Positions 2 to 32,726 of a stretch of 64,000 nucleotides of DNA are shown piece by piece. Made by a program: the position numbers and the translations under genes. Numbering within the stretch: the first letter of the stretch is position 1; each line of letters opens with the position of its first letter. Under the pieces are notes generated by a model. It saw only the letters and a program-made list of their open reading frames with translations, was not told where the DNA came from and searched no databases. The stretch is from Betaproteobacteria bacterium HGW-Betaproteobacteria-4 (GTDB lineage Bacteria; Pseudomonadota; Gammaproteobacteria; Burkholderiales; Rhodocyclaceae), in the NCBI GenBank assembly GCA_002840785.1, contig PHCH01000003.1, positions 62,001-126,000 on the forward strand, written 5' to 3'.

Positions 2-3000
2 TTGAGCTTCACCCCGGAAGCCGGCTACATCGGCGAAGCCACGCTCACGCTGCAGGCCGACGACGGCTTTGCGACGGGAGCGCCGATTGAGGTCAAGGTG
101 AACGTGAGCGGGGCGAAGCTGCTGCAGATCCACCTGGCCCAGTTGCCGAGCATGTTGGCCGGCAAGATTGCCAAACTGCAGGCCACCGCCGACTTCGAAG
201 ACGAAAAGGGTGTGGCGATTACCAACGCGGCTTACCTCAATGTCAGCGTCGTCGATCTGGCCGGCCTGGGCAGCGTTGGCGGCAGCGCCGTGGGCGTGAA
301 CGACCAGCACGATACGATCCGCGCTGAAGCCACCGGCGCGGCCCTGGTCATCGTTCGCCGCATCGATGCCGATGGCCGCTTGATCCAGGCGGTACAGTCG
401 GTTAATGTCAAAACCGCCACCGTACCCAGCGACGACGAGGAATACTATGCGGAAGACAGCTTCATCGTCGAACCCGACGTCTATCCTGGCACCTTGACCT
501 TGATCCCCGGCGGCACCCGGCAACTCAAGGTGCACCTGATCGACTCGGGCAACGGCCAGCAAACCGACATCCACGGCGCCAGCCAGATCGAATTCGCCGG
601 CTCGCCCGAGCAGGTGGACACCTGGCTCGACCCCAGCACCCAATTGCCCTTGATCGACCCGGATACCGGCGACTACCTTTACGACCCGGACACCGGTGAA
701 ATTCTGCTCGATCCGAACACCGGCGAAACGATCACCTATGTAACGCCGGCCCTGCCGGAAGTCCGCAGCGGCACCCGCTATGTGATCAGCGACGAATCGA
801 TCGCCACGATCAGCGAAGACGGCCTCATCACCGCCATCAAGACCGGGCGGGTCACCATTTCGGTGGTGCATCTGAAGAGCGTCACCGATGGCTACGGCGC
901 CATCAGCGAGCAGGTCATCGGCCAGACCGACATCTCGCTCAACGTCGAAGCGCCCAAGGTCGTCGACACCGGTGCCGGCATCACCATCGCCGCCGACCTG
1001 GGCGGGGCAGTGCAAGCGACCACCGGCGAGACCGTGCTGATCGGGGCCGGTGCGCTGAAGCAAGACGTCGCCGTCAGCATCAAGCGCATCGAGCTGGCCA
1101 ATGTCCAAGCCGAAACCGGCATGGAGATGCCGGTGCCGGAAGCCGTACAAGCCGTGGCGGCCTTCCGCATCGACATTGGCGACCAAGCCAGCAATACCCC
1201 GTTGCAACTGGCCATTCCCCTGCAAGACACCAGCAATCTGCAAGCCGGCGAAGAAGTGCTCTTCTTCAAGAAAGGGCAGGCCCTGCAAGCGGACGGCAGC
1301 TTCAAGGACATCTGGTGGATCATCGACAACGGCTACGTCGGTGCCGACGGCGTAGCCCGCACGGCCAGCCCACCGTACGTCGGTCTGGACGAATCCGGCG
1401 AATACCTGGTCGGCAAGAAACTCCCCGGCATCATTACCAGCGAATTCGAATTGTGGGGCAATGCCGGCGATTGGCTCACCCTGGACAACGTCGGCCTCGG
1501 CTTTGGTTTGGGTGGAGACCTCGCGGCCAAGATGGTCACCGGCAGCATCGTCAGCCTGATCTGCTCCATGGCGAAAAACATCGGTGCCGCCTCCTACCAT
1601 TTCGGCGTGCCGCAGTTTGCCAAGATCGAACTACCGGTGATTCAGCCCGGCGAGCGTTTCCAGCTCAATACCGGCAACTACCTGAAACCGGCGCCCACGC
1701 CCTGGGGCAATGTCGTGGTACCCAACATCACCGACGCCAAGATTACCGATGCCAACGAATTCCAGATCACCATCAACAACCCGGATCCCGGCCTGTTCAA
1801 GGGCAAGCTCATGCTGCGCATGGTCTTCGACAACGGCACTACACGAGATGTTTGGACGAAGGAAGAGGCAGGCAGCGGCGACCTGAGCGGGGTGGTTACC
1901 GTGACGCCGCCCAAGGGCATCGCCATCGGCAGCGTCGGTTGGCAACTGGTCCGCCAGATTTCGACAGAACAGCTCAAAGGAACAGGCACCTTTGCTGATG
2001 GCGAACAGTTGGTGTTTGCCGGCAACGTCGCGCGCATCACCCCGCGCCCGCACATGGCCGCCACGCTCACCCGCACCGGTGTCGAGTTCATTCGCAAGAC
2101 CGACCAAACCGTGGTCGCCTCGGTCAATCTCGTGGACTATCTCGGCGCCCAGCAACTCGACTACATCGTCGGCCGCAAGGTCCAGCCCATCGTCTTTACC
2201 GACGACCTGTCGCGCGTCTTCATTGCCGGCAATAAAGAACTGATCGTCATCGACATGCTCACCCTGAAGGTGATCCAGGTCGAGAAAATCGAAGCCGCCA
2301 AGAACATCACCAGCCTCGCCACGGTCGGCAATCTGCTGCTCATCGGCGAAGGCACCCCGGGCGGCGGCAACCGGCTCCTCGCACTCGACATCAGTTCGCG
2401 GAACGTCGATCCCGATACCGGCAAATTCAAGAACAAACCCGTTTCCCTCAAAGGCACCGGCATCGAAGCCAGTCCCAACGGCATCGGCGGCATGATAGTC
2501 GGACCGGATGGGCGGACCCTGGTCGTCTCCGTGCCCACGCAGTCCGATACCCTGAGTTGGGGTCCGAAAGACCTCTCGCGGCGCGGCAATGTCCTCATCC
2601 TCGACCTCAATACCCTGGATATGACCACCGGCAAGATCGCCCAGCCGGTCGTCGCCAAACTGCCGGACGACGGCAAGAGCGGCAAGGCCACGATGAGCAT
2701 CATGGCCACCCGTGACGCCAACCGCTACCTGGTGGCCAACCCCCTCGACTACGACCGCGGCCTGTCCACCCTCGTTCTGACGCGCAACGCCGAAGGAACC
2801 GTCACCGGTGCCGAAATGAAGGCCATCAGCATGTTCCAGCGCGACGAGCAAGTCAAAATCGACCGCCTGGACATCCAGCGCGCCCAGAGCGCCGTGCTGG
2901 TCAAGATCGACGGCGTCGAATACGCCCTCGTCGCCGACGACAACTTCTTCGGCAACGACCAATACTGGTGGCAAATGTACGAGGCCCCCACTTTCATCTA

Positions 3001-6000
3001 CACCCCCTCCGGTCCCCCCATCGCCGTGGGCGGCAGCGCCAATGCCAAGAAGGTCAACGTCGGGGGCAAGATCGGCGTCGTCAAGGACCCGTTCGGCACC
3101 CCGGAATACCTGGGCGCCACGCTGCCGCTCGATGGCTACGGGGTGCACAACCTGGGGCTCTCCGAAGACGGCAAGGTCCTGATCGGCCAATTGCGCGGAC
3201 TCTCCAGCGCCAACATCTACGACAACGACCCGCGCCCCAGCCAGGCCCATGCCTGGGATGTCGCGGAACTGATCAAGGCAGCCCTTGCTCAGCCGGAAAA
3301 GGATCGGCTGTCGAAACACATCAAGCTGCCGCCCAATGCCGAGCAGCTCATCTCCAAAACCAACCAGCAGGCCGGCTCGATTGCCAATGGCTGGCCGATC
3401 GGGACGTTCTTTGATCCGGAGTTCATCGACGTTGTTGCAACAGGACGGATGGGGGATGTGATCGGCGTTGATCTGCGTGAACTCGCCGCCAAGCAAATTC
3501 TGCTGAAGGAAAAAGCAATAACGGAAGCCGATGCCGAGAAAACCCTGGATGCCATGAGCGACGAGGCCAGGAAACTCGTGAGAGGCCGGATGGACAAGCT
3601 GGAGGATTTCAGCCTTCAGAATGCCGACCTTAACCGCTTGGTCGATTCCTCGAGTCCAATGCAACTGGTGACGAAAAATGCGCTTTCCAAGGAAATCTAT
3701 TCACGGGCGAGTGTCGATGGCGAATTCGAACTGGACTTCAAACAATCCGGCGTCCTTTACTTCGTGCCGAATATCACCGCCAGCGGTGACGACAACGATC
3801 TTCAGAGATTGCGTGAGGGTAAAACCCTGAATGACAAATGGGCCTCGTTCTTCTTCACCTGCACGGATTCCTCGAAACCCGAAAAAGACAATGTGGTGGG
3901 TAGTGGGACGGTGACGGCCAAGGACTACGCGACCGTCAGCAACCCGTTCTTTGGAGATCGGCCGCTCGATAATCCGGGGTATTCGAAATTTGAACTGAAG
4001 GGCGGCGTAGCTGTTGGACAGGCAAACGACAAACTTGACGTCTACCGCGTCGAGCAACGTTTAAAGTATCTCGGCTATGGCCTGTCGCAGGTCAATGGCA
4101 GCGGCGAAATCGTTGTAAATGGCGAGTTCTCTAAGGAGGAGAGCGTTGACTTGCAGCAATTCGAAACAATTGTCCGCGTTGGAATAGTGCCGACGAAGGC
4201 GGATCGCGGCGCAATCAAGAAAGAGACAACCAAAAATGCCGTTGCGACCCTGAAGGTGACGGTAACCTATTTCGCGGATACGGATGATTACGTAGTCCAA
4301 CCGGAGACTGTTACGTCCTCCCTGAAGGCTGCCGGAAACAAACTTTCGGACAAAGAGAAGAAAGTTGCAAAGACCGAGGCGGAGGCCGCAGCACGCGCGA
4401 ATCAGTTGGCAGCCGCCATTGATGAGGCAAAAGCGGCCGCAAAAGCAGCATACGAGGAGGCGTTAAAAGCACCGAAAATAGGGGCCGATGGCATCATCGA
4501 AAAGCAAACCGGCCAACAAAGTCAGGGCGACAAAAATGCCAAGTTGACTACAGACTGGCTGAACGCCTACAACGCGCCGCACTGGATGGATTTCAGCTCA
4601 ATGCTGGTGACCAACGGCACGCTCTCCGCTGGCTGGGTAAACAAGGTAGCCACGGGTGGCAGCACGCAAGGTAGCAGTTGGATTTACGACATGATGCTGG
4701 CCTCGCTGAGCCAGTCGCTGACCGATAGCGCCAAACTCTGGTTCAAAGGTACCGGCAAGTTGGGCAGCATGCTCAATATCGGCATCAATTCAGCCTACAT
4801 CTCGAACGGCGATACGGGGAGCCAGAGCACCACAAAATCCAACCAGGCACGGGTGAATGGCAAGGATGTGGTGCTGGGGCTGACCCCGGACAATCTCACC
4901 AGCGTGGGCGGTACGGCGCTGGATGTGGCCGCCTACAAAGCCAGTAAATGGAACTACGACAACGCCAAAACGCTGGCGGGCATGCTGACTAACCCGAACA
5001 TCGACAACAATTACAACGCCACCCAGAAGACCTTCGGCGGCGCGACAGACAATGCTGCCGGCGCCAACCGGCAGGACATGGCGCTCAAGGACTTCCTGCG
5101 AGTCTATTCGGTGACCCTGGATGACAACCAGAAAGACAACGGCATCGGCTGGGACGATATCCCGATCGCAACCACCAAAGATCAGGAGAAGATCAAGGAA
5201 GCGCTCTTCGGCACCGGTCGGCAAGATGCAGGCATGATCGACTCGAAGAACGTCCTGCTGGGGGGTACGGCGGCGGCGTTGGGGGAGATGATGACGGCTG
5301 AGTCGTTGGCGACTTTCATGGGAAGCAAATCAAGCGTGGACTACAGCCAATGGGTCAAGCCGCTGCAAGATGCCATGGCAGAGTTCGAGATCAACACTCC
5401 AGAGCGCATCGCGGCTTTCCTTGCTCAAATAAAGCAGGAGTCGGCGGGGTTAAAGAAGGCAAAAGAGAATATCGTGTTTGATGATGGTATCACTCTGCCG
5501 ATTAGAACCCTTATCGATAAGGGAACCAACAATTTGGTCGCTAATTTCTCGGCAGGGTTCAAGCTGATATTCAAAATGGGTTCGCTTACTATTACGCACA
5601 CGGCCGATGCATACAATCAAGGAAGTGACCTAAAAAAGAACGCAAACGATTTCTTAATGAGTGAGATTGTTAGTGGCATCTATGGGGTGGATATCGTTGC
5701 GCTTATTCAGTCGAAGAAAGATGCCGACGCGGCGCTATCGACTGCAAAAGGGACGGAAAATGAAGGAGTGGCGCAAGCTGCGGCCTTGTTGGCTAACAAG
5801 AATCTTGAGGAGGCCTACAATAAAAATGTGGTTTGGGGAGAGGCGGCAAAAGAGCGAGTAGCAAATCGCGTCTATTCCAGTGACAAGGGCAATCCTGTGG
5901 GTGATCCAGCGCATGGAGCTAATGGCAAAGAATCTACGGGTGACGGTTATCGCTATATTGGGCGCGGATTAAAACAGCTGACGGGCCGATATAACACAGA

Positions 6001-9000
6001 AGGCTTTGTTGACTATGTCAGCAAAAACCCAATTGCTGGACAGCCTACATCTGCCGATATAACTGCAAACCTGGATCTGATGGTGACAGATAAGCGGCTT
6101 GCGGCCCGGTCCGCCGCTTGGTTCTGGCAGAAACAAAATAGCAATCGCTTAAATGCCAAGGCTGACAACTTGACCTTAACCGGAAACGATAGCGAGAGAC
6201 CGCAGATCGATCAAATAACCAATAGAGTCAATCCAGGTGCGCGAGAGGATGACAAAGATACAAGATGGACTAACTACATAAAGAACGTCACCGCAGTACT
6301 GAATGGTGGCAACCCTTACGAGAGCATGCGTTCCGTCCTCTCCCGCGTCGGCATCACCACCGTTGCCGGCCAGCACTATACGCGACAGTTCGGCATCACT
6401 CTGGCTGCCCATACGGCGGTAGGCATTGACGATGGCAAATCGACCAGTAACCTGATGGCAGCCGCTGGGGAAGCCCTGAGCGAAACCACGGACCTGCTAG
6501 ATCTGTCAGCGGAACAAGAGGCGCAACTGTGGACCCAAGCCCAACCGTTGTTTGACCAACTGAAGAAATCAAATGAGGACAGCGCTATGTGGATACCTAA
6601 CCTACGGGATACCAGCCTTCTAGCCGGTGCGGCGGTCGCCGTCGTCGCGGCTTCGCCGGTGCAGGCAGCCAACGACTTTGCGTTGGGTGTTTGTCGTACC
6701 GCATCGCCGTCTGCCGGCGCGGAAATTGCGCCAACAATTGATGGCGACACCTATCTGTATGAATATCATTCTGACGATCCACGCTATAAGGGCTTTAGCT
6801 TTAAGAATACTGGTGCCAAAGTGACCGTGATTAAAGCACCGCAGCATGGTGAGGTTGTTTTGGAGGATACCGCCTTGGGAACAGCCCACAACTGGTACCA
6901 CTACATGCCGAAGGATGAGGGCTACAGCGGTCGGGATCGTTTCGAGATGCTGGTGGAAAAAGGCGGCTTCAAGATTCACATCTATTACCTCATGGAAGTG
7001 CTCGATGAATATGACACCCCGACCGGACGGTGTCATTCAGGCCATTGGAAGATCTCCTCCTTCACCACTCCCACCCTCGACAATGCCGCCCTCCAAGCGC
7101 TGCTCGACGCCACTCGTATCAACAACACCGTCACCACCGCCGACCTATTAGGCGGCGCCGTCGGCCAAACTACCGGCTCGTCGATTACCCTCGACACCGA
7201 CGCCGCCGGCCACGGCTGGTACATCGACTACACGCCGTTCCTGAACGACGAGTACCTCCCCACCAGCAACCCGCTGGAATGGATCGCCAAGCCGGGCAGC
7301 GTAGCCGACGGCAAGATGGATATGCTTACCGTATTGCTGCACGAATATGGCCACGCTCTGGGTCTCGATCACACGGCGGACAGCCACGACCTGATGGCCA
7401 GCACGCTGTTGCCGGGCGTCCGCCGCCTACCCAGCGCCGAAGAACTCAACCTCATGGCCCAACTACTCGGCGTCGCCAAGGAAACCGGCAGTGCCTCGCC
7501 AGTCCCCTACGACCCCTTCAGCCCACCCGGTACGCCGCTGCCGGCCACTATCAGCCTCGCCGCCTTCGTCGCCGCCCGCCAGCGCCGCAGTACGCTTTCC
7601 TCCACGCTGACGCAATTCGAAGTCGCCGCTAACCCGACACTGACCAACCCGCAATTCGCGGATAACCAAGGCTGGGCTACGGAAGGTGATGTCGCCATCG
7701 CGGCCGGCGCAGCCACCCTCAAGGAAACCGCCACCACCCAGACCCGCCTCAACCAGGCATTCGTGCTCGGTCCCAACGACCGCTTCCTGTCCTTCACGCT
7801 GTCCGGCATCGCGCTGGACGATGTCAGCAACGCACCGGACGATGCCTTCGAAGTTGCCCTGATCGATGCCAATACTGGCTTGTCGCTGCTGGGCGGCACG
7901 GGTCTCACCCACAACGACGCCTTCCTCAACCTTCAAGCTGACGGCACGGAATACAAAGCTTCGGGTGTAACGACGGTGAAGAACGCCGACGGCAGCCGCA
8001 CGGTGCTAGTCGATCTGGCCGGCATCGCGGCGGGCACGGTGGTCAATCTATCCTTCGACCTGATCGGCTTCGGCAAGGGCGCGGCAGCAGCCAGCAGCCA
8101 CGTCACAGTCACGGATCTGCGCCTCGGCGTGCCGCAAGAAGCACACGACGATACTGCCACCCTGGCCGAAGATGCAACGCAGGATATCGACGTCATCGCC
8201 AACGACATCGGCGCCGATCAGCCGGGCGTGTTGCCGGTTCTGGTCAGCGGTCCGGCACACGGCACGGCGGAAATCACAGCCGAAGGCCGTTTCCGCTACA
8301 AGCCGACGGCTAACTGGTCGGGCGAGGACAGCTTCAGCTACCGCCTATCCGACGGCAATCTCGATTCCAACATCGCCGAGGTCAAGCTGACGGTCACCTC
8401 GGTCAACGATGCCCCGGTGCTTGCCGCCAACACCGCCACGCTGGACGAGGACGGCGAAGCCGTTATCGACTTGCTGCAAGGCGCCACGGACGTCGACGGC
8501 GACGTGCTTACGGCCACCGTCAAGACCGGCCCGCAACACGGCAGCCTGACGCAGAACACGGACGGTAGCTGGACCTATGTGCCGAATGCCGACTGGAACG
8601 GTTCCGATGCCATCGTCTATGAAGTCACCGACGGCAATCTCGTCACCAGCGGCGTAATTGCGCTGATCGTCAAGGCGGTCAACGACGCACCGGTGATTGC
8701 ACCGCGCACGGTGACGCTGGATGAAGACGGCCAAGCCGTCATCGATCTGCTGCAAGGCGCGACGGACGTGGATGGCGATGTGCTCACGGCAACCGTTACG
8801 ACGGCCACGCAACATGGCAGCCTGACGCAGAACGCCGACGGGACTTGGACCTATGTGCCCAATGCCGACTGGAACGGCAGTGATGCCATCGTCTATCAAG
8901 TCAGCGACGGTGCGCTCAGCACCAGCGGCGTGATTGCGCTGGTGGTCAAGGCGGTCAACGACGCGCCGGCGATTGCACCGCGCACGGTCACGCTGGACGA

Positions 9001-11524: not shown

Positions 11525-11539
11525 GTAGAGGTGATACTA

Positions 11540-11576
11540 GAAGCGTCATGGACTCGTATCGAGGAAATGACGCTTC
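11540..11576 (+). terminator. Hairpin downstream of the giant gene
   Basis: GAAGCGTCAT (11540-11549) pairs perfectly with ATGACGCTTC (11567-11576) around a 17-nt loop. It lies 15 bases after the stop of the giant gene and before the tolC-like gene. No T-run follows, so it may be an attenuator or an mRNA 3'-end stabiliser rather than a full terminator. Confidence 0.35.
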
Positions 11577-11727
11577 AGTATGGCGCTTGGATGAAAGCCC
11601 GTTTGGGTTTTCTTGACGATTATGATAGTGACCTATGTATGCCAATCCAGTATAGTCTCGGGCGCATTGCGCCTCTATGGTCTCGCTTGCCGTGGAGTTA
11701 TCGAAAAATACTCGTTTAACTGACTCC

Positions 11728-13197
11728 ATGCCTGGTTTGTTCCGGTCATATTCTTTGCGGAAGTTTCCCTTGGTTCGACGTTTCCTGCCACATCCGGGCA
11801 AGGTTGCTTGTGGCTGGCGTTTTTCCGTACTGGTGCTGGCGCTTGCCCTGGCCGGTGCGGCGCAGGCCCAGTCGTTTTCGGTGCTGCTCGAGCGTGCCCG
11901 CTCCGGCGAGCCGACCTATCTTGGGGCGAAGACCAATGTGCTGGCCGCCCAGGCGCGCAATAGCCAAGCCATAGGCGCGATGCTGCCGCAGGTCAGTGCG
12001 ACGGCCAGTTCCAACGACAACGACCGCAAGTACAAGACGCGAAATTCCAGCGTGCCGGAAGCGCGCGACCAGTACGACAGCTATTCGGCCCAGATCAGCC
12101 TGACCCAGCCGCTACTGCGCTACGCCAATATTGTCGGCTGGCGCCAGGCGCGTGCGGTGGTCGGGCAGGCCGAGCACCAGTTGGCCGGTGCCGAGCAGGA
12201 GCTGTTCGCCAAGCTGGTCGGCGCCTGGTTCGACCTGCTGGCGGCACGCGATGCCGTGGCCTTTACCGGTCGCCAGGCGGACGCCTTGCAGCGGCAGTGG
12301 GAAATCGTCAGCCGGGGCGGCGAACTGGGCGTTTACGGCCAGCCGCAGGTGGACGAGGCGCGGACCAAGCTGGATCAGGCGTTGTCGGATGCGGTGGTGG
12401 CGGAAACCGACGTGCATTTGAAGCGGGCGGCGCTTGAACAACTGGTGGGCACGCTACCGGAGCGCGAATTGCCGTACATGGTTGGCGAGGCGGTGCTGGC
12501 CTCGCCAACCAGCGACTCGCTGGAAAAATGGCTGGAAAACGTCGAGACCGGCAACCCCAACATCCTGGCGGCGACGCAGGCTTTTGAAGCGGCCTTGGCC
12601 GAGGTGAGCAAGCAGCGCGCCGGGCATTTTCCGACCCTCGACCTGGTCGCCAGTTATGGCAAAAACGGCCAGGCGGTCGGCGGCTTTCCGGGACAGGCCG
12701 GGTACGACATCGTGCAGGGCACGCTTGGCCTGCAGTTGAATGTACCTCTGTTTTCCGGTGGGGCGCAGTCGGCCAAGGTGGATGAGGCGCTGGCGCAGAA
12801 GGAAAAGGCCAGGCTGGATCTCGAAGTGGCTCGCCGGACGGCGATCCTGAACACCAAGCAGGCGTGGTTTGGCTGGCATGGGGCATTTGCCCGGACCCGT
12901 GCCGGCAATCAGGCGGTCAAGTCGGCGCGCTCGGCCCTGGCGCAGGCGAAGGCCGGTGCCGAAAACGGCTTGAAGACGGAACTCGATGTATTGCAGGCCG
13001 AGCAGCAGTTGCGGGCCGGGCAGCGCGATTTCCGCAAGGGGCGCTATGACCAAGTGGTGACCTTCATCCGCTTGCTGGCGGTCAGCGGCAGGCTTACGGA
13101 TGGCGATGTGGCGGCCCTCGACAGCCTGCTCGTCGAGTCGCCGGAAGCCGCTGAACCGCCGGTCGAAGCAAGAATGATCAAGGTGTCCGGACGATGA
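11728..13197 (+). CDS. tolC: TolC-family outer-membrane efflux/secretion channel
   Basis: A protein of 489 residues. A basic N-terminus leads to a hydrophobic signal segment ending in GAAQAQ near residue 47, so the mature protein is periplasmic/outer membrane. The rest is long amphipathic helices typical of the OEP family (two repeats, tunnel-forming trimer). An ATG at 11677 would add 17 residues; I prefer 11728 because it leaves a more normal signal peptide, but neither has a clear ribosome site. Its stop overlaps the next start (ATGA), so it is translated with the adaptor gene. In this locus it probably forms the outer-membrane exit for the giant protein (inference from context). Confidence 0.85.
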   Translation: MPGLFRSYSLRKFPLVRRFLPHPGKVACGWRFSVLVLALALAGAAQAQSFSVLLERARSGEPTYLGAKTNVLAAQARNSQAIGAMLPQVSATASSNDNDRKYKTRNSSVPEARDQYDSYSAQISLTQPLLRYANIVGWRQARAVVGQAEHQLAGAEQELFAKLVGAWFDLLAARDAVAFTGRQADALQRQWEIVSRGGELGVYGQPQVDEARTKLDQALSDAVVAETDVHLKRAALEQLVGTLPERELPYMVGEAVLASPTSDSLEKWLENVETGNPNILAATQAFEAALAEVSKQRAGHFPTLDLVASYGKNGQAVGGFPGQAGYDIVQGTLGLQLNVPLFSGGAQSAKVDEALAQKEKARLDLEVARRTAILNTKQAWFGWHGAFARTRAGNQAVKSARSALAQAKAGAENGLKTELDVLQAEQQLRAGQRDFRKGRYDQVVTFIRLLAVSGRLTDGDVAALDSLLVESPEAAEPPVEARMIKVSGR

Positions 13198-15059
13198 GCG
13201 CGAAAGAGAACTTGCCGCCACCGGCGGAGAATAACGAAGGCGTGCCACTGGAATTGCTGGCCTGGGATGCCTTTGTTTCGGCGAAGACTGCGGAGGGGCG
13301 CTGCCATGCCTGGCTTGCCCTCGTTTGCGGGAAAATCCGGGGGGCCAGGGCGGCGGCCGTGCTGATCGAAAATACGCTCGACCATACCTTCGTGCCGATG
13401 GCGGTCTGGCCCAAGGCCAGTCCGGATCTCGGCCGGCTGGGTCCGGTCGTCGAGGCGACGCTGCGCGACCGGCGCGGCATCGTCAAGCCCGTAGCCGAGT
13501 CGCCGGGCACGACGCAGATTGCCTATCCGCTGATGGTCGATGACTATGTGGCGGGCGTGGTGGCACTAGAAGCGGTTTGCCCGGAAAACGAAGTCGGCGA
13601 AGTGCTGCGCGAAATCCATTGGGGCAGCGCCTGGCTGGCCAATCTGCTGGCCGGCCGCGAGTTGTCCGATGCCATCCAGGCCCGCGAGCGCGTTGGTTCT
13701 GTGCTGGAGACGACGGCAGTGGCCCTGCGCCATGGCAAATTGCGCCAAGCGCTGTTCGAGGTTGCCAATACTCTGCGTCAGCGTTTCGCCTGCACACGCG
13801 TCGCCATCGGGCTGGTTTCGGCGGCTACGGTCAAGCTGCTGACGTTGTCCGAGGCGGCGGTTTTTGAGAAGCATGCCCTCCTGGTCAAGGCCTATGAACA
13901 GGCCATGGAAGAGGCCTACGACGAGGGTGGCGCGGTGCGCTCCACGGCCGAGGCGAGTGTGGAGACGACTGCGGAGACGCGATCCTGGCCGAAACACGAA
14001 GCCTTGCGCTCGGCGTCCGGGGCCGGTGCGGCACTGTCCTTCCCCCTGATGATGGGCGCGCAGGCGATTGGTGTGCTGACGCTGGAGCGGGAAGCGAAGC
14101 CGTTTTCCGACGACGATCTGGTCTGGCTGGACGCCTTTGGTGCCCTCGTTGCCCCCATCATCGAGCAGCGCCAGGCGGCCGAACGCGGTGCCTTTCGCCG
14201 CCTTGGACGCGATGCCCGGCAGGTGCTGGAGAAGATTTTCGGGCCGCGCCACCTGACGTGGAAGGCGGGGGCTGCTACCGTACTGCTGCTATGCGCGATC
14301 CTGATCCTGGTGCCGATCAGCTATCGGGTATCGGCCAGGACAGTGATTGAGGGCGAAATCCAGCGTGTCGTGGCGGCGCCTTTCGAGGGCTTTGTCGGTG
14401 CCGCCTACGTGCGGGCCGGCGATACGGTCAAGGCTGGGCAGCCGCTGGCGCAACTCGATGATCGCGAATTGCGCATCGAGGAGGCCAAATGGTCGAGCGA
14501 GCGCGACCAGTACGACAACCGCCTGCGCGAGGCGATGGCCAATCACGATCTGACTGCGATGCAGGTGGTCGGCGCGCAACTGCGCCAATCGGCGGCGCAA
14601 CTCGCCCTGGTTACCGAGAAAATCGCCCGCGCCCACCTGTGCGCGCCCTTCGAGGGGATCGTGGTGTCCGGCGACCTCAGCCAGCAGATCGGCGCACCGG
14701 TGGAAACCGGCAAGAAATTGTTCGAAGTTGCGCCCCTGCAAAGCTATCGCATCATCCTGCAGGTCGATGAGCGCGAAATTCGCCATGTCCAGATGGGGCA
14801 GGCGGGGCGCCTAGTAATGACAGGCATTGCCGGTGAACCGATGGATTTCAAGGTGGCTAAAGTCACGCCCGTGGCGACGGCCCAGGAAGGCAGGAATTTC
14901 TTCCGGGTCGAGGCCGCGCTGGCCGAGGCTTCGCCGCGCCTGCGGCCGGGCATGGAAGGCATCGGCAAGATTGAGGTCGGCGGCCGTTCGCTGTGGTGGG
15001 TGCTGACCCACAGTTTCACCGACTGGCTGATCCTCTCGCTGTGGACCTGGCTGCCTTGA
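13194..15059 (+). CDS. GAF-domain HlyD-like membrane-fusion protein
   Basis: A protein of 621 residues with an unusual fusion. The N-terminal half is soluble and resembles one or two GAF domains (roughly 20-150 and 175-325), including ALSFPLMMGAQAIGVLTLER. A single membrane helix follows near 358-378 (VLLLCAILILVPISY). The C-terminal half is an HlyD/biotinyl-lipoyl adaptor: EGFVGAAYVRAGDTVKAGQ, a short helical hairpin, then a second lipoyl strand AHLCAPFEGIVVSGDLSQ and a beta-barrel. The GAF part should lie in the cytoplasm and the adaptor in the periplasm, which would let a small ligand or protein contact gate the channel (inference). The start overlaps the TolC stop by 4 bases; the M50 gene follows after 6. 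Confidence 0.85.
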   Translation: MSAKENLPPPAENNEGVPLELLAWDAFVSAKTAEGRCHAWLALVCGKIRGARAAAVLIENTLDHTFVPMAVWPKASPDLGRLGPVVEATLRDRRGIVKPVAESPGTTQIAYPLMVDDYVAGVVALEAVCPENEVGEVLREIHWGSAWLANLLAGRELSDAIQARERVGSVLETTAVALRHGKLRQALFEVANTLRQRFACTRVAIGLVSAATVKLLTLSEAAVFEKHALLVKAYEQAMEEAYDEGGAVRSTAEASVETTAETRSWPKHEALRSASGAGAALSFPLMMGAQAIGVLTLEREAKPFSDDDLVWLDAFGALVAPIIEQRQAAERGAFRRLGRDARQVLEKIFGPRHLTWKAGAATVLLLCAILILVPISYRVSARTVIEGEIQRVVAAPFEGFVGAAYVRAGDTVKAGQPLAQLDDRELRIEEAKWSSERDQYDNRLREAMANHDLTAMQVVGAQLRQSAAQLALVTEKIARAHLCAPFEGIVVSGDLSQQIGAPVETGKKLFEVAPLQSYRIILQVDEREIRHVQMGQAGRLVMTGIAGEPMDFKVAKVTPVATAQEGRNFFRVEAALAEASPRLRPGMEGIGKIEVGGRSLWWVLTHSFTDWLILSLWTWLP

Positions 15060-15065
15060 GCGCCC

Positions 15066-17213
15066 ATGACGCGTAGCCTGTTCAGTTCGTCCTGGCACAG
15101 CGTGGCCGATCTTCGGCCGCGTCTGGTGCCACAGTCGCGCATTCACCGTCACGTCTATCGCGGCCAGGTCTGGTATGTCGTGCAGGATCAGACCGGCGGG
15201 CGCTATCACCGGCTTTCGCCGGCCGCCTACAACTTGTTGCTGGGCATGGACGGCACGCAGACGGTGCAGCAGCTGTGGGAGAAGGCCAACCAGTCGGGGG
15301 CCGGCGATGCCTGTACGCAGAACGAGATTGTCGATCTGCTCGTGCAGTTGCACGCTGCCGACCTGCTGCAGGCGGATACCAATCCGGATTCGGCGGCGCT
15401 CTTCGACCGCTACCGCAAGAAGCGCAGCGCCAGCCTCAAGCAGTTCCTGCTCAATCCGATGAGTCTCAAGGTGCCGCTGCTCGATCCGGATCCCTTCTTG
15501 GTGCGCTGGGCGCCATCGTTTGCCTGGTGCTTCTCGCGGGCAGGCGGCTTCGTCTGGCTGGTCTTTGTCCTGCCGGCCCTCGTCCTGGCGGGCCAGCACT
15601 GGTCCGAACTGACCCGGAACATGTCGGACCAGGTGCTGTCGTCGAGCAACCTGCTGGTCATGGCCTTTGTCTTTCCGCTGGTCAAGTTGCTCCACGAACT
15701 CGGCCATGCCTTCGCTAGCCGGGTCTGGGGCGGGCCGGTACACGAAATGGGTGTGATGTTCCTGGTCTTTGCGCCCGTGCCCTACGTCAACGCCTCGGCT
15801 TCGTCGGTATTTCCCTCGAAATGGCGGCGCGCGGTAGTGGCGGCGGCCGGCATGCTGGTCGAGCTTTTCCTCGCCGCTCTTGCGATCTATGTCTGGCTAC
15901 TGGTCGAGCCCGGCGTGGTGCGGGCCGTCGCCTACAACGTGATGGTGGTGGCCGGCGTATCGACCCTGATCGTCAATGGCAATCCGCTGCTGCGCTACGA
16001 CGGCTACTACATCCTTGCCGATCTCATCGAGATGCCCAATCTCGCCCAGCGCGGCCAGAAGTACCTGACCTACCTGTGGGATCGTTACGTGTTCGATGCC
16101 CATGACGTGGACGAGCCGCAGGAGGGGCGTGGCGAAAAACGCTGGCTGGTTTCGTACACGCCGCTCGCCTGGTGTTACCGGGTGTTCGTCACGGTCTCGA
16201 TCATATTGTTCGTGGCAGGGCAGTTTTTTATTTTCGGCGTGTTGATCGCCCTCTGGGGGTTGGTCTCGCTGATCGGCATGCCGCTCTGGAAGGCCTATAA
16301 GCATGTTGCCCGCAGTCCCGGACTGCAACGCCATCGGGTTCGCGCCTTGCGGATTTCGCTGGGCCTGGCGGCTGCCTTGCTGTTCCTGCTCTTTGTCGTT
16401 CCGGTGCCTTTGCATAGCCGTGCCGAAGGCGTCGTTTGGCTGCCCGATCAGGCCATCGTGCGCGCTGGCGGTAACGGCTTTTTCCAGCACTGGCTGATCG
16501 AGCCGGGAACGCCGGTCAGCAAGGGCGAGGCGTTGTTCGAACTGGAAGATCAGTTGCTAGGTACCGAACTGGAAGTGGCGCGAGCCAAGGTCGCAGAAGC
16601 CGAGGCGAAATACCGCTCGGAACAGTTTGTGGACCAGTCCAAGGCGGCACTGTCTGGGCGTCAGCTTGAACAGGAAGAAGCCGTGCTGGCCAAACTTAAG
16701 GAGCGGGCAGGAAGACTGGTCGCCTATGCCGAAACCGATGGCGTGCTGGCCGCCGCCGCCTCGCAGGACATGCCGGGGCGCTATCTGAAAAAGGGCGAAT
16801 TGGCCGGTTACGTCCTCGAAAAGAGTTCGCTGATCGTGCGTGTCGTGGTGCCGCAGAGCGATATCGATCTGGTTCGTGCCTACTTCCGCTCGGCCGAACT
16901 GCGGCTGGCCGACTGGGTCGGGTCGAGCCATGCGGCAACGCTGGTCCGCACGCCGGCCGGCGGGGTCGAGGAGTTGCCGACGGCTGCGCTCGGCGTTTCC
17001 GGTGGCGGTCAGATTCCGACGCTGCCCAGCGACGCCAATGGCGTCAAGACCACGGAGCGGGTTTTCCTGGTCGATCTGGCCTTGCCGGCCGACGTGCCTT
17101 CGACGGCCTTCGGCGAACGGGTTCATGTGCGCTTCGGCCATGGCTGGGAACCGCTTGCCTGGCAAGGTCTTCGCCGTCTGCGCCAACTCCTGTTGAGCCA
17201 ATTCAATGTCTGA
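15066..17213 (+). CDS. PqqD-like / M50 metalloprotease / HlyD-like inner-membrane protein
   Basis: A protein of 715 residues. It begins with a PqqD-like winged-helix segment (about 20-105: VQDQTGGRYHRLSPAAYNLL). Next come membrane helices with a site-2-protease core: zinc motif HELGH near 209 and a second motif NPLLRYDGYY near 305. The C-terminus has a biotinyl-lipoyl/HlyD-like domain with a coiled hairpin (about 445-715). M50 enzymes cut substrates inside the membrane, and PqqD domains hold leader peptides in RiPP systems. The combination suggests recognition and membrane-level handling of an exported protein (inference). It is co-transcribed with its neighbours and overlaps the SecA-like gene by 8 bases. 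Confidence 0.85.
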   Translation: MTRSLFSSSWHSVADLRPRLVPQSRIHRHVYRGQVWYVVQDQTGGRYHRLSPAAYNLLLGMDGTQTVQQLWEKANQSGAGDACTQNEIVDLLVQLHAADLLQADTNPDSAALFDRYRKKRSASLKQFLLNPMSLKVPLLDPDPFLVRWAPSFAWCFSRAGGFVWLVFVLPALVLAGQHWSELTRNMSDQVLSSSNLLVMAFVFPLVKLLHELGHAFASRVWGGPVHEMGVMFLVFAPVPYVNASASSVFPSKWRRAVVAAAGMLVELFLAALAIYVWLLVEPGVVRAVAYNVMVVAGVSTLIVNGNPLLRYDGYYILADLIEMPNLAQRGQKYLTYLWDRYVFDAHDVDEPQEGRGEKRWLVSYTPLAWCYRVFVTVSIILFVAGQFFIFGVLIALWGLVSLIGMPLWKAYKHVARSPGLQRHRVRALRISLGLAAALLFLLFVVPVPLHSRAEGVVWLPDQAIVRAGGNGFFQHWLIEPGTPVSKGEALFELEDQLLGTELEVARAKVAEAEAKYRSEQFVDQSKAALSGRQLEQEEAVLAKLKERAGRLVAYAETDGVLAAAASQDMPGRYLKKGELAGYVLEKSSLIVRVVVPQSDIDLVRAYFRSAELRLADWVGSSHAATLVRTPAGGVEELPTAALGVSGGGQIPTLPSDANGVKTTERVFLVDLALPADVPSTAFGERVHVRFGHGWEPLAWQGLRRLRQLLLSQFNV

Positions 17214-19194
17214 CGCCCGGGCCCTGCTGATCGGTCGCGGCATTGAGCTTGGCGACGGTGCCTATCTCGAACACGCCAACCAGCCTACGCATGCCGTCGA
17301 AGAGTGGCTGCGCGCCCTGGTCGCCCGCTTTACCGGCGGCACCGCCAGGCGCAATGGTAGTTTCGTACGCCAGGTCAATGCTCTGGAAGAAGAGATCAAA
17401 GCGTTGGAGGACGATGCCTTGCGCGCGGCGATGCGCGCTGTATGCAGGCAGATGCAGACGGTGGGGTTTCGCGATGACTTTCTGGCTCGCGCTTTTGCCA
17501 TCGTGCGTGAAGCGTCGCGGCGAGCCTTGGGTATGCGCCACCATGATGTCCAGCTACTCGCTGGCCAGGCCCTGATGCGTGGCCGCATTGCCGAGATGGC
17601 CACCGGCGAGGGTAAGACGCTGGCCGCGACATTGGGCGTATGCACCGCTGCGATGGCGGGCGCGGCCGTCCACGTGGTGACCGTTAATGATTACTTGGCC
17701 GAGCGCGATGCCGAGGACAATACGCCGCTGTTCGCTTTCTTCGGCCTGACCATCGGGGTCGTCAAGCAGGACATGTCGATCGACGACCGGCGGGCGCTAT
17801 ATAGCCGGGATATTGTCTATGTTTCCAACAAAGAACTGACCTTTGATTACCTCAAGGACAGAATCGCCCTTGGTGCGACGATTGCCTCGCAACTCAAGCT
17901 GCGCCGCCTTGGCCGGGAGCGCGGTGCGGCCGACGGCATCCTGCGCGGCCTGCATGTCGCGATCGTTGACGAGGCCGACAGCGTTCTCATCGACGAGGCT
18001 AGAACGCCGCTGATCATCTCGGAAACCCTGCCGGACGACCTGGGCGAGGATATCTACCAGCAGGCCATCGCCGTCGCCGGGCAGCTTCAGCCGAAGCTCG
18101 ATTATGTTCGGGGGCTGCAGCGCGACATCTGGCTTTCGGCTGCCGGCGAGAACACTGTGGCGGGACTGGTCAAGGATTTTGGCGGTGTCTGGAAATCGCC
18201 GTTATGGCAGAAGGAACTGATCGGCAAGGCGCTGTCGGCACTGCACATGTTCCAGCGCGACCAGCATTACATCATCGTCGAAAACAAGGTGCAGATCGTC
18301 GACGAGTTCACTGGCCGGGTGATGCCTGACCGCACCTGGGAGCGCGGCCTGCACCAGATGATCGAGGCCAAGGAAAATTGCGAGATCACGGGGCAGCGTA
18401 GGACCCTGTCGCAAATCACCTACCAGCGGTTTTTCGGGCGTTATCTTCTGCTCGCGGGGATGACGGGGACGGCCAAGGAGGTCGGGCCGGAACTGAAGCG
18501 GGTCTATGACTTAGACGTAACACGCATTCCCACACACAAGCCGACGCGGCGCCTGCGTCTGCCCGACCGGCTTTTCCGGACATCGGACGAGCGCTGGCAG
18601 GTGGTTGCGGCACGCGCCCAGGCGGTGGCCGAAGAGGGCCGGGCCGTTCTGGTCGGCACCCGCTCGGTCGAAGCCTCCGAAATCCTGAGCCAATTGCTGA
18701 CCGCTCGCGGCGTCGCCCATACCGTTTTGAACGCCCGCCAAGACAAAGAAGAGGCCGACGCGGTCGGGCAGGCCGGCATGGCCGGCCGTATCACCGTGGC
18801 GACCAACATGGCGGGACGCGGCACTGATATCAAGCTGACCCCGGAAGTCGAGGCGCGCGGCGGCCTGCATGTCATCCTGACCGAGTTCCACGAAAGCGCC
18901 CGGGTTGACCGGCAGTTGTTCGGACGCTCGGCCCGCCAGGGCAATCCAGGTTCCGTCGAGGCCATCGTCAGCCTAAGCGATGAACTTTTCCAGCGTTATA
19001 CGCCGACCCTGGTCAGTTTTGGCATACCTTTCCTGCCCGGTGCCGAAACGCCCAATGCTCTGCTGCTCAAGGGCCTGGTGCGCTACGCCCAGAGCAAGGC
19101 CGAAAGGCAAAACCGCCGCATTCGTCTCGATACCATTCGCCGCGACCGCCAGTGGCTGAAAGCCTTGGGTTTTGTCGGTGGTGAGCGCAAGTAG
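17206..19194 (+). CDS. Short SecA-like preprotein translocase ATPase
   Basis: A protein of 662 residues against about 900 for housekeeping SecA. It keeps the DEAD-motor motifs: Walker A MATGEGKT (about 131-138), DEAD-type VDEADS near 254 followed by IDEARTPLIIS, NMAGRGTDIKL near 534, and GRSARQGNPGS near 572. The preprotein-crosslinking region between the motor halves is present. The C-terminal scaffold/wing region is short and the C-terminal zinc-binding tail of SecA is missing. It is the last gene of the secretion operon. It probably powers export of the giant protein or a partner, as accessory SecA2 proteins do; a link to this particular channel is inference. No clear terminator follows. 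Confidence 0.85.
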   Translation: MSDARALLIGRGIELGDGAYLEHANQPTHAVEEWLRALVARFTGGTARRNGSFVRQVNALEEEIKALEDDALRAAMRAVCRQMQTVGFRDDFLARAFAIVREASRRALGMRHHDVQLLAGQALMRGRIAEMATGEGKTLAATLGVCTAAMAGAAVHVVTVNDYLAERDAEDNTPLFAFFGLTIGVVKQDMSIDDRRALYSRDIVYVSNKELTFDYLKDRIALGATIASQLKLRRLGRERGAADGILRGLHVAIVDEADSVLIDEARTPLIISETLPDDLGEDIYQQAIAVAGQLQPKLDYVRGLQRDIWLSAAGENTVAGLVKDFGGVWKSPLWQKELIGKALSALHMFQRDQHYIIVENKVQIVDEFTGRVMPDRTWERGLHQMIEAKENCEITGQRRTLSQITYQRFFGRYLLLAGMTGTAKEVGPELKRVYDLDVTRIPTHKPTRRLRLPDRLFRTSDERWQVVAARAQAVAEEGRAVLVGTRSVEASEILSQLLTARGVAHTVLNARQDKEEADAVGQAGMAGRITVATNMAGRGTDIKLTPEVEARGGLHVILTEFHESARVDRQLFGRSARQGNPGSVEAIVSLSDELFQRYTPTLVSFGIPFLPGAETPNALLLKGLVRYAQSKAERQNRRIRLDTIRRDRQWLKALGFVGGERK

Positions 19195-19544
19195 ACTTGC
19201 CTTTCGCGGCTACCTATTTGTTTCCGTACGAACAGCAGGATGGTTCTACGGCTCCTGATCAAACGCCCATCAAGCATACATTGGGGGGGTAATGTCAAAC
19301 GAAATACAGTAGGGAAGGGACCTAAATGGTGCAGATGGAGCGGAAGCTCCCTACCGCCTTTAAACAACGGCGTAACGGAATTCTGTGCTGTCGTCGACGA
19401 ACTTATGTTGGCAATGTATGCTTATGCCATGGGTTATTTCGTCGTCGATAAAGGCATACTTCGAGACCTCGCTAGAGCCAATGCTTGGTCTTTAGCGCTG
19501 GAGCGTGCCGTCTTTCTAAGTTTTGAGCCCAGGAGAGTGCTGCA
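19195..19544 (+). other. Gap between secretion operon and defence island
   Basis: No confident gene lies here. A reading frame runs from 19240 to 19548. Its last 47 codons (ATG at 19404) give a plausible small helical peptide and end in an ATGA overlap with the next short ORF. The 12-mer TAATGTCAAACG at 19290-19301 recurs at 32054-32065, just after the Shango genes. I found no obvious terminator or strong promoter. Confidence 0.4.
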
Positions 19545-19548
19545 ATGA
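19404..19548 (+). CDS. Possible small ORF upstream of the helicase gene
   Basis: A 47-residue frame from an internal ATG, or longer if it begins upstream. It has a hydrophobic central stretch (MLAMYAYAMGYFVV) and an acidic/basic C-terminus. The only support is that its stop overlaps the next short ORF's start in an ATGA arrangement. It has no recognisable family and may be spurious. Confidence 0.18.
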
Positions 19549-19628
19549 GCACGTCGTTGCCCAATTTGCTGGAGCTGCAGGACTCCTCTTGGGATTCGTT
19601 CGACGTATTCGGGCAAGCGGGCGAATGA
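19545..19628 (+). CDS. 27-residue ORF coupled to the helicase gene
   Basis: An ATG at 19545 has a good ribosome site (AGGAG, about 9 bases upstream). It encodes 27 residues and ends in a TGA that overlaps the helicase ATG (ATGA at 19625-19628). The helicase ATG has no ribosome site of its own. This short frame is therefore either a leader peptide providing translational coupling or the true N-terminus of the helicase split by a frameshift. Confidence 0.35.
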   Translation: MSTSLPNLLELQDSSWDSFDVFGQAGE

Positions 19629-22600
19629 CCCTAAAACCATCCCGGACCGCGACAGCGATTTTTCTCAAGGGTTTCAAGGAACCCTATTTACGCTCGCATG
19701 ACCGCCCGTTCATCAAACTCTTGAACTGGTACACGGGCATTGGCAAAACATACAACGCCGCTGCCTTCAGCATTGAGCTATTCCTCAATTGCGAGGTCAT
19801 TCCCGTCTTCATTGCGCCACTGCAATCGCTAGTTTCACAGTTCAATAGCGAAGTACGTAATCATGAACAGGCCCGGAACTACGCCGACGATATTGAACGA
19901 GCGGTGATCGAGCACGGTGCGGAGATCCCAGTCTATCGGTTGTACTCGATTGATTACCACGTCAATGACCGTACCTTCTTCAGCGCCTGTTTAGCTCTGG
20001 TGCGCTGGTTGGAGCACCACCCCAAAGTTGTCGCGAAGATGGAGCGCTCGCCCAAACACGCGGACACCGATAAAAGCATCCGCAGCCGCATTCAGGAACT
20101 GCGCGCCAAAGCGGCTTCGTGTGAGCAGTCCAACTTTCTCGGAATGTCCACTACAGACGATACTTACGAGGATACGAGAACAGCGTATTTGAAGTCGGCA
20201 AGACAAGCCCGCAGCCTCGCCGACCGGTTCGTCTGGAAGCTGATTCAGTTGGACGTAGAAAGCCGGTCCGCCAATGGCGAGGAAGATCGGTATATGCAGG
20301 TTCGAGAAGTTGCTGAGCTAGTAAGGCGCCTTCACCCACTTCAGGCTTTTCTTGATGCTCCAGGCATTATCGTGTGCACGGCTTCCAAGGCGCAGGTAGC
20401 ACACAAGGTTTTTGCGGCTGATGGGAAGGGTGGCTTCAAACAACACGACTGGGAAAATCTACCACTGTTCCTGGAGGAGCTGAATCGAGAGGGGAGCGCA
20501 CTTGGCCTGCTGGTGTCCAGATGCCCAGATTCCGCTCGCGTTGTAACGTTCGTCGATGAGGAGGAAGACTCCTATTGGTATTTGTTCGAACAGCGCAAGT
20601 CGGTGGTGAACTCCGGCGGCCGGAATGACCTGAACTTGGTCATCACGGAGTTTTTCCAATACTTCGACCTGAAGTGGCCGATGGCGTTCGAGCGCCTTGA
20701 GCTGTCTGGCCCACGGCGGGAGCTGGCGTACAAGGTATACAACCACCTGGAGGACTTCGCTCGTATCAGCAAAAGCCTGGAGGATGAGTTCAAGCTGGAA
20801 GTCGAACGCACGAAGGCATCGTTCATCCTGCCGCAGCGCAGGGTTGAGCTTTTGCGTACCAAGCTATTCGAACTGTCCCCCAAAGCGGCGAATCATTTTA
20901 CCAACGAAGAATTGTTGCAGATTCTCACACAGCTTCATGAGCGTAATGACGCCCATGCAGACTTCAAGCGGTTTCGTCAAAAGGCGCGGGTCCTCCAGCG
21001 GATTCGCTCGTACGTGCAGGATATTAGGCAGCCCGACCAGGGCACCGATTACGACGTTTTCGTGAATTTGCACGACCTCGTAGTGAACAAGAAATTCTTC
21101 ACCATGAGCCGTTCGACGTACGGCGAGGTGTTAGACCAGCCCGGGCAAACTTTCTTCACTGAGTCCGCTAGCGTGATGGATACCGAGTTCCTGCGCCAGG
21201 TTCAGCTTATGAAAGACACGGCGCATCAGACCATCCGCTTACAGTACCACGATGGCAATGTCCCCGAAGGAGCGTACAGCCTGTACGATTACCTTCGCTT
21301 GGTGATCTTTATGGCGCGCGTTTTGGCGGTGACCAGTGGGGAGGATGCCATCGAGATGTCCAAGGTGGACCAAGAGAGGTACCCCAGTCTGGACAGGTTC
21401 CGTTCCGATGTACGCCGGCTATTCGACGGCAAGACGGCGTCCGAAGGGCTGGAGACCGAGGTGAGCGATAAGGAATTGCTCACGGACTCCTTTTTGTTCG
21501 AACACACCAAGTCCGTGGTCACGCTTGAGGAGAGCCGTAATCAGGCCGAGGAGTACAACAAAGAGGCGGACATCTGCCTTACCCTGACCATTACTTCTCT
21601 GCGTGCCACCCCCGAGGAAGACATTGTTCGAGCCCTCGGGCGCACGAACGGCGTGTTCCTGATGAGCGCCACTGGCGGCCTGGATTCCGCTTCTTCGGGT
21701 GCCTTCAACACAAAACACCTGCGCCGCTACTTGGAAGAACGCGGTGGCCATTTCTCGGAGATGGGAGACGACGAACTTGAGGTGGTTGGTGCCCAGGCAC
21801 TGGAGTTCCTGAGGAAGCGGGAGCGGAAGGTGGTCATCCTCGACGACGAGGACCCAGCGCCCACGTTCGAGACTTCGACGGCATTCAAAGGGCTGTACCA
21901 GCTGTTTGATGAGGCTCGCCCAAAGAAGGGCGAATCCGGCTACGGGCCGTTGAACAGACACAAACGGCACGAACTGCAGGGCTTGGTCGCCAGCCTGGAC
22001 AAGCTTATGGCAACTAGCATTCGCTCGGGCCTAGTCCTGTGCCAGACCACCCAACATGTAAAGAAATGCCTGATTCGCTTGGCCAACTCTTCGCTGGGGC
22101 TGGTCACGCAGAAAGACACGACGGGCGACTACTTCGTAGTGAAGCCGCGGGCAGTCCCGACCTTTCACGAATTTGAGCAGACCGAAGAAATTCATATCGT
22201 CCTGTACTCGGCGGAACGCTTCCGCAAAAAAGACCGCACCAAAACTGGCGCAGCTGAGGAGGAGGACGACAAAGGCCAGTTCAATAAGGAACTGGAGGAT
22301 GCGCTGGATATCAGCCGTAAAAAGGTGCTGCTTTGGACGGCATACGCGTCGGCCTCTCGCGGCATCAACTTCTTGACCAAGCAGCACGGCACTGAACGCG
22401 ATTTTGAACTGTTCTGCCTGCTCAATGACCCTTACTACACGCGGCATACTCGGCCTGGCTCAAGCGGCTTCTCGATGGAGATGTTCCAGAGCTTCGCGCA
22501 GGTACTGCGGGATGATGTCCCAGAATGGGCGGCCATGTCCAAGGGCGACCTGCTGTTCGAGTATTCGCGTAATCGCTGGAAACGTCTGCGTAAAGAACAC

Positions 22601-32100: not shown

Positions 32101-32151
32101 TTTATTCCCCCTTCCGAAAAGCCGGATAAACTGTCGGCAAGGGGGAATAAA
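32101..32151 (+). promoter_or_regulatory. Hairpin that encloses the ribosome site of the PycTM gene
   Basis: TTTATTCCCCCTT (32101-32113) pairs perfectly over 13 bases with AAGGGGGAATAAA (32139-32151). An inner GCCG/CGGC stem (32121-32124 with 32135-32138) extends it. The right arm contains the AAGGGGG ribosome-binding purines, and its last A is the first base of the PycTM ATG. The structure should hide the ribosome site, or it may act as an attenuator after the Shango operon. Confidence 0.65.
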
Positions 32152-32651
32152 TGATTTGTGACCAAGAGCGCTTCAAATTCGCACAGTGGCTATTGGAGCG
32201 CCAAATTGGCTGGATTGCCATTGCCGATGTAAAAATCGGAGTGATCATTGCTATACAGACGGCCATGGCCGGTGGGCTCGCAGCGGCTCTGGGCTTTGTA
32301 CCACAGAAGACGGAATGGGCCATCCTCTTCACTGTTGCAGCATTCGTATGCGCGATTGGGGCTTTCGTGTGCGCCAGCCAGGCGCTATTTCCTCGCACCG
32401 ATGGGCCAGAGAAATCGATGATCTTTTTCGGACGCATTTGCAGTGAGCCGCGACCTGATTTCATCGGAAAATTCCGTGCCGCTACAGAGTTGGAACTGCT
32501 GGAGGATTGCGCAGCCCAGGTACACCGCAACGCAGAGATTGCCGCCGAGAAGCATCATTGGGTTAAGAACGCACTTATCTGGTCCTTCCTATCGGCACCG
32601 CCGTGGGTTATTGCCATCGTGTTATTGGCTCAGATGCAGGTGCCGAAGTGA
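32151..32651 (+). CDS. pycTM: Pycsar membrane effector, PycTM-like (DUF5706)
   Basis: A protein of 166 residues. Predicted membrane helices lie at about 29-49, 57-78 and 141-161. The conserved family signature is visible: IFFGRI (91-96) and ELLEDCAAQVHRNAEIAAEKH (split about 115-134). In Pycsar, cyclic CMP or UMP made by the cyclase activates such proteins, which then damage the inner membrane and stop phage growth. The cyclase lies 247 bases downstream on the same strand with a small ORF between. The ribosome site is locked in a hairpin, which could limit toxic leakage. Family assignment is by motif pattern; an unrelated SLATT-like protein is less likely. Confidence 0.82.
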   Translation: MICDQERFKFAQWLLERQIGWIAIADVKIGVIIAIQTAMAGGLAAALGFVPQKTEWAILFTVAAFVCAIGAFVCASQALFPRTDGPEKSMIFFGRICSEPRPDFIGKFRAATELELLEDCAAQVHRNAEIAAEKHHWVKNALIWSFLSAPPWVIAIVLLAQMQVPK

Positions 32652-32726
32652 CTTGAGAGATGAACTGGCGGCAAAGCACCCCGATCCGTGCCGCGGTAAT
32701 GTGATCGAAATTGACGGGGTGGCAAC

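Follow-up and report, generated by a model that had tools for sequence, protein, structure and literature searches.

A candidate ABC-less, TolC-dependent exporter associated with giant LEPR-XLL proteins

The 64,000-nucleotide stretch analysed here (the window) covers positions 62001-126000 of contig PHCH01000003.1 (C85), part of the 4.07-Mb draft genome, in 174 contigs, of Betaproteobacteria bacterium HGW-Betaproteobacteria-4. At its start, genes for a TolC channel, two HlyD-like adaptors and a short SecA-like ATPase follow the gene of a giant protein. We propose that these genes encode an exporter without an ATP-binding cassette (ABC) transporter that is TolC-dependent and dedicated to giant surface proteins carrying an N-terminal LEPR-XLL leader, a reading built from sequence comparisons to which we give a probability of about 0.7. 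Patterns of association give good support to the view that LEPR giants are served by this exporter. The leader is probably recognized by one of the adaptors, the PqqD-M50-HlyD protein, with the short SecA as a dedicated motor of one branch of the family.

As the first-pass annotation had described, five consecutive + strand frames open the window: the giant (2-11524), the TolC-family protein (11677-13197), GAF-HlyD (13194-15059), PqqD-M50-HlyD (15066-17213) and the SecA-like ATPase, here called mini-SecA (17206-19194). The giant is followed after 152 bases by TolC, and the next junctions are an overlap of 4 bases, a gap of 6 and an overlap of 8. The outer membrane channel has 506 amino acids (aa) and matches OEP (1.4e-51) and TIGR01844 (231.7 bits, cut-off 225.15). 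GAF-HlyD combines a GAF region (7.5e-10), one hydrophobic segment (358-376) and a HlyD region (HlyD_D23, 1.5e-17). A third HlyD gene, for 279 aa with an N-terminus that by eye resembles a signal peptide, lies directly upstream of the giant gene (L006:12519-13358). The locus thus holds the HlyD adaptor and TolC channel of a type I system. Domain scans of its genes also confirmed the reported absence of an ABC gene, and among the ABC matches listed on C85 the nearest lies some 76 kb off, at 156960.

What is the giant protein? The first-pass annotation had its gene begin at base 2, which proved wrong: the TTG there is only the window edge, and the real ATG is at C85:35491, 26.5 kb upstream of the window. 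The whole gene (C85:35491-73524), read through contiguous stretches, encodes 12,677 aa, of which the window holds the C-terminal 3,840. Eleven CARDB stretches occur alongside He_PIG, Big_9 and cadherin-like repeats; a matrixin-like M10 domain scores above its cut-off, and matches to GH19 and to dockerin fall below theirs. The full 12,677 aa contain no match to the RTX nonapeptide pattern, as had been said of the part in the window, and the C-terminal 3,840 aa have no match to the type I target domain TIGR03661 (E 0.001). Upstream of the window, at residues 56-76 (C85:35656-35718), the giant carries the LEPR-XLL leader of NCBIfam NF012209 (35 bits, cut-off 17). This N-terminal leader is basic and non-hydrophobic and ends in LEPRVLLSGD.

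The same leader recurs across 68 LEPR loci. Under a strict pattern that fixed L, E, R and two residues after the next, 55 distinct leaders share a mostly basic tail followed by the consensus [FL]E[APT]LEPR[LVI]LLS[AG]D; with the first ATG taken as the start, LEPR is preceded by a median of 43 residues. At the free positions P was found in 47/55, S in 47/55, A or G in 55/55 and D in 48/55; the set includes three leaders of a sister type described below (L210, L212, L213) and L211, the probably spurious frame of genome G472. The remaining 13 loci are one duplicate and 12 variants such as MEPR, VEPR, IEPR and LLMSAD. Judged by hydropathy alone, a strong hydrophobic stretch (mean of at least 1.8 over 15 residues) is absent from all 67 distinct leaders: none of the 55 strict leaders reaches 1.8 and the 12 variants peak at 1.06. 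On the same measure the first 80 residues of the giant score 1.13, the third HlyD 1.81 and TolC 2.05. The leader is therefore unlike a Sec signal peptide. Among 73 LEPR frames in the order-level set of genomes, 64 reach 1,000 aa, 43 reach 5,000 aa and the largest has 14,191 aa; contig ends can shorten these lengths. In this set and among the genomes chosen for the exporter (below), many of the longest frames measure about 12,000-14,200 aa, as if around a common size.

The exporter and the leader occur in the same genomes. In a class-level set of 143 genomes, each from a differently numbered family, a strong M50-HlyD match and LEPR were found together in 10 genomes, the exporter alone in two, LEPR alone in one and neither in 130 (Fisher p 1e-12). 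Strong matches here scored at least 375 bits (268 for the second fragment in G094) and weak ones at most 176. Of the two exporter-only genomes, G008 is 75% complete, and in G094 the protein is split at contig ends. When mini-SecA was counted instead, as a match extending beyond query residue 600 within a frame of less than 800 aa (10 genomes, including G009 with one internal TGA), the corresponding numbers were 9, 1, 2 and 131 (Fisher p 1e-11); in G052, one of the two LEPR-only genomes, the M50 gene runs into a contig end. The order-level set of 260 genomes, with strong matches at 474 bits or more and weak ones at 352 or less, gave 25 genomes with both, 4 with the exporter only, 4 with LEPR only and 227 with neither (Fisher p 1.1e-26). 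Three of those four LEPR-only genomes have a sister exporter beside the LEPR gene, and the fourth, G472, is counted on a 23-aa frame that is probably spurious. Among 48 named genomes picked because they carry the exporter, from the first 50 by rank of 80 loci, 39 have LEPR; none of 14 well-known control genomes does. Among 190 Alphaproteobacteria, scores pointed to a SecA-type exporter only in the centre genome G187 and to weaker sister-type matches in nine others, so that this set serves only as a check of specificity; LEPR was found in two of the 190, G187 and G240, the latter with a sister-type match.

The two also lie side by side. Seventeen of the 44 strong M50 hits in the order-level set (one protein being split in two) have a LEPR gene on their own contig; in 16 of these it is within 10 kb, by gene ends estimated from open-frame length, and in all 16 on the same strand. 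This count and that of frame lengths leave out four LEPR rows of G471, G616 and G627, which belong with the sister exporter. In G526, which encodes two exporters, each is accompanied by a LEPR gene of its own.

The genes travel as a unit, and with very large proteins, as genome searches bore out for the four-gene set proposed in the first-pass annotation (TolC, GAF-HlyD, PqqD/M50-HlyD and mini-SecA). Our named-locus counts cover the best 80 of at least 570 confirmed relatives (589 pattern matches), so the family with its weaker members is much larger. GAF-HlyD is present in 76 of the 80 loci, and in the other four no more than about 400 bases separate the start of the contig from that of the M50 gene. 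We found mini-SecA in 73; five of the other seven loci are cut off by the end of the contig. Among the matches listed, the closest named relative of the window M50-HlyD is from Azonexus hydrophilus (93% identical).

PqqD-M50-HlyD joins three parts: a PqqD-like region (about residues 12-105), a site-2-protease-like region with HELGH (210-214) and NPLLRYD (306-312), and a HlyD region (445-701). Its matches to Peptidase_M50 (5.8e-6) and HlyD_3 (4.9e-4) each fall about 1 bit below the Pfam cut-offs, and the PqqD match of the window protein stays below threshold (19.4 bits, cut-off 23.4). PqqD was matched at E up to 1 in eight of ten family members, the best at 6.8e-7, and we accept a PqqD fold at the N-terminus. 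H210, E211, H214 and D312 are invariant in 54/54 sequences, which gives the protein both the HExxH motif and the second-site aspartate of M50 proteases. The AlphaFold2 model has a pLDDT of 85.6; the Foldseek rows shown for it are HlyD-type chains and include no M50 structure, and are uninformative on the fold. The profile of daptide HExxH proteases, NF041824, scored 137.5 bits, below its cut-off of 300.

Mini-SecA (662 aa; SecA_DEAD 2.1e-99, SecA_PP_bind 3.1e-22) is an extra copy, since a canonical SecA (922-aa frame) is encoded on contig C141. Both lobes of the ATPase are kept in it, as is the preprotein cross-linking domain. SecA_SW was not matched (Pfam scan, E 0.001), the family profile aligns only to residues 14-605 of Bacillus subtilis SecA, and the AlphaFold2 model (pLDDT 83.3; Foldseek to SecA 9.8e-54) ends in one long helix (618-658). 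The wing and C-terminal scaffold/finger of SecA were therefore not found; the lacking region is one we take to be the wing and two-helix finger used with SecY. The ATPase motifs G134 E135 G136 K137, D255 E256 D258, R574, R577 and G579 are invariant in 36/36 aligned rows. All 11 genomes searched, the source genome included, have a single SecY and so lack the second SecY of a SecA2-SecY2 pair. The N-terminal tail carries a YPER motif in 15 of the 36 aligned rows (Y.ER in 21; loci L078-L157) and YLEH in the window copy.

Is mini-SecA what defines the export route? A sister exporter suggests otherwise. Its M50-HlyD proteins are 20-25% identical (five aligned), and its gene order is a TolC-like gene, a small HlyD, a second HlyD and then M50-HlyD. 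The second HlyD has a GAF-like N-terminus by eye, although Pfam GAF gave no match in the one scanned (E 0.01). No SecA gene was found in the sister loci read, and 11/11 sister genomes contained only full-length SecA (frames of 908-967 aa), against mini-SecA in 4/4 strong-exporter controls. Of 27 sister loci, 14 have a same-strand gene with a LEPR-type leader, 12 are cut by the contig or fetch limit and one lacks the motif. Four of the 27 (G616, G471, G627 and G240) were picked because the genome had LEPR; the 23 others comprise 11 that fit, 11 that are cut and one misfit, hence 11 of 12 testable. The leader reads LEPRx[ML]FD[AG]A in 13 of the 14 and LEQRVVLDAA in L220. DUF4347 was found in two of three of these leader-bearing proteins scanned. 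Their frames range from 843 to 4,385 aa, apart from L244, which the fetch cut at 293 aa; at 843 aa, the frame with LEQRVVLDAA (L220:5894-8422) shows that giant size is no fixed property of the substrate class. Both branches can share one cell, as six genomes of the order-level set (G466, G597, G620, G559, G632 and G408) have strong as well as sister-type matches. Since the leader is kept where mini-SecA is absent, its recognition most likely resides in the shared PqqD-M50-HlyD protein.

These findings refine the claim of the first-pass annotation that the SecA-like motor drives export. The LEPR-type leader, as read by PqqD-M50-HlyD, is probably the determinant, given the sister with LEPR-type substrates and no mini-SecA, and a motor role would apply to one branch. 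In the mechanism we envisage, the PqqD-like domain would bind the leader in the cytoplasm and the site-2-protease-like domain would clip it near LLS[AG]/D, as is predicted for leader removal in daptides, a class of ribosomally synthesized and post-translationally modified peptides (RiPPs). The mini-SecA clamp might then drive the unfolded chain, the HlyD proteins and TolC would form the path across the envelope, and the GAF protein could act as a sensor or gate. The inner-membrane pore would be either an M50 assembly or SecYEG. By analogy, the scheme is probably one of RiPP-like leader reading that feeds a type I-like conduit. More tentatively, LEPR-type leaders may be a general secretion signal unrelated to Sec and Tat signal peptides, read and cleaved by PqqD-M50-HlyD in the manner of RiPP leader processing. 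This core would send very large surface proteins out through TolC in two branches: one with a finger-less SecA motor (LEPRxLLS[AG]D) and one with none (LEPRx[ML]FD[AG]A, some with DUF4347).

Several observations weigh against a dedicated LEPR exporter as we describe it. LEPR occurs without a detectable exporter in G076 (780 contigs), and four exporter genomes of the order-level set lack LEPR (G430, G492, G531 and G559, drafts of 310-580 contigs), as do 9 of the 48 genomes chosen for the exporter. No LEPR gene shares the contig with 27 of the 44 order-level exporter hits, many of them on short contigs. The Fisher p values take no account of relatedness, a point of greater weight in the order-level set. 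Two loci, L094 (Omnitrophota) and L152 (Chromatiaceae), have room for a mini-SecA but no adjacent one, and because the sister exporter has none, a motor role cannot explain the whole family. In the sister locus G476 the long adjacent frame lacks the LEPR motif. Finally, a type I exporter exists elsewhere in the source genome.

How else might the giant reach the surface? Canonical SecA and SecYEG could take it over the inner membrane, leaving the cluster to move it from the periplasm to the outside through HlyD and TolC, with mini-SecA helping or regulating Sec. The single SecY, which means that no dedicated channel was seen, the sister genomes with only full-length SecA and the preprotein cross-linking domain retained in mini-SecA are all consistent with this. 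We nevertheless consider it unlikely: no leader reaches the hydropathy of 1.8 that TolC passes clearly and the third HlyD by a thin margin, and mini-SecA, whose alignment stops near residue 605, would lack the wing and two-helix finger used with SecY, if we place those domains correctly. Still less probable is a cluster whose task is not export but the processing or cell-surface anchoring of the giant, with the motor helping maturation. The protease motifs are kept in both branches and mini-SecA is missing from one, as such a role would allow, but a conduit is the simplest reading of a TolC-like gene with two or three HlyD genes, and the leaders show no hydrophobic export signal.

The type I exporter of the source genome offers a further route: the giant would leave through an LssB-type system on contig C60, and the window cluster would have another role. 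Its ABC protein (G000:C60:60310-62397) scores 1011 bits (cut-off 693) and the type I HlyD next to it 398.8 bits (cut-off 208.65). Yet this system adjoins an RTX frame of its own, of 1,272 aa, that matches PF00353 (7.5e-16) and the type I target domain TIGR03661 (67.2 bits, cut-off 17.6), and so has a substrate of its own kind; the giant shows neither mark in the regions scanned and is co-located with the window cluster. Furthermore, five of eight exporter-bearing genomes (G107, G538, G526, G053 and G106) have no ABC protein over the LssB cut-off, HlyB and PrtD types not having been searched, so LEPR giants seem not to need an ABC of the LssB type. We therefore judged it unlikely that the giant is a type I substrate of the C60 ABC, and give this reading the lowest probability of the alternatives. 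The first-pass annotation had allowed that a type I set elsewhere in the genome might account for export on its own; such a set does exist, though beside its own RTX protein.

If LEPR-type leaders are indeed a general signal, they would mark a secretion class of their own. The listed entry of the NCBI LEPR-XLL family model gives the motif a name but no function, and the tie of the motif to the exporter makes this unexplained curated N-terminal tag a candidate secretion signal. The same tie proposes a substrate for a module that had been described in 2015 without any, and turns the working of a SecA without wing and finger into a testable question.

Other features surround these genes. Between giant and TolC, a perfect 10-bp inverted repeat (11540-11576, no strand assigned) was read by eye; with no T run after it, it is possibly a regulatory hairpin. 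Promoter and terminator scans of the exporter locus gave no more signals than shuffles. Downstream, the window contains a Shango anti-phage set (26142-32048; SngA 6.5e-110, SngB 1.2e-183, SngC 4.4e-275) and, directly after it, a Pycsar pair (32151-33594; 2TM effector 7.3e-63, PycC cyclase 2.5e-105). Two genes of 1,407 and 727 aa (19523-25929) had no PADLOC match (E 0.001) and, because of their place between exporter and Shango, may be an unlisted defence component. Upstream of the operon of the giant, minus-strand genes (L006:1966-7226, on C85) resemble, on inspection by eye, a transposition set of the Tni/Tn7 type with integrase, ATPase and TniQ-like genes.

How does this exporter relate to known systems? 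The first-pass annotation had called it undescribed, a claim that falls: Kamneva, Poudel and Ward 2015 (PMC4452313) report loci with a secondary SecA_DEAD protein, GAF-HlyD, M50 and HlyD and no ABC gene, and propose SecA as the ATPase and M50 as the membrane part, with OEP sometimes present. In the accessible part of that article, the loci share with ours SecA_DEAD without SecA_SW, GAF-HlyD, an M50-like HlyD, a further HlyD and no ABC. Its main text does not contain "giant", "adhesin" or "cadherin" and uses "substrate" once, in general terms, while the legend of its Fig. 3 mentions some proteins over 1,000 aa. Neither the leader nor a SecA-less sister was found in that part of the article; both are features of the present analysis. 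The open-access literature beyond this paper and a citing paper, where accessible, yielded no link of LEPR, DUF4347 or giants to the exporter. As far as the open-access literature goes, the leader pairing, the substrate class and the SecA-less sister are thus new here.

Among better-known systems, the accessory SecA2 of Gram-positive bacteria resembles mini-SecA as a second, divergent SecA for special substrates. Unlike SecA2, mini-SecA ends at about SecA residue 605, has no second SecY and is paired with HlyD and TolC. Type I secretion with an ABC of the LapB/LssB type shares the HlyD adaptor, TolC and very large, repeat-rich surface proteins with the window locus. Known type I systems read a C-terminal signal, whereas the window locus has an N-terminal leader, no RTX and a SecA-like ATPase in place of the ABC transporter. 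Lastly, the metalloproteases that remove leaders from daptides and other RiPPs (NF041824) offer a likeness for the protein that probably reads the leader, as they too combine an HExxH membrane protease with a PqqD-like domain of the leader-binding type. They differ in that here PqqD-M50, which scores under the cut-off of their profile, is fused to a HlyD adaptor and would act on a substrate of 12,677 aa rather than on a short peptide.

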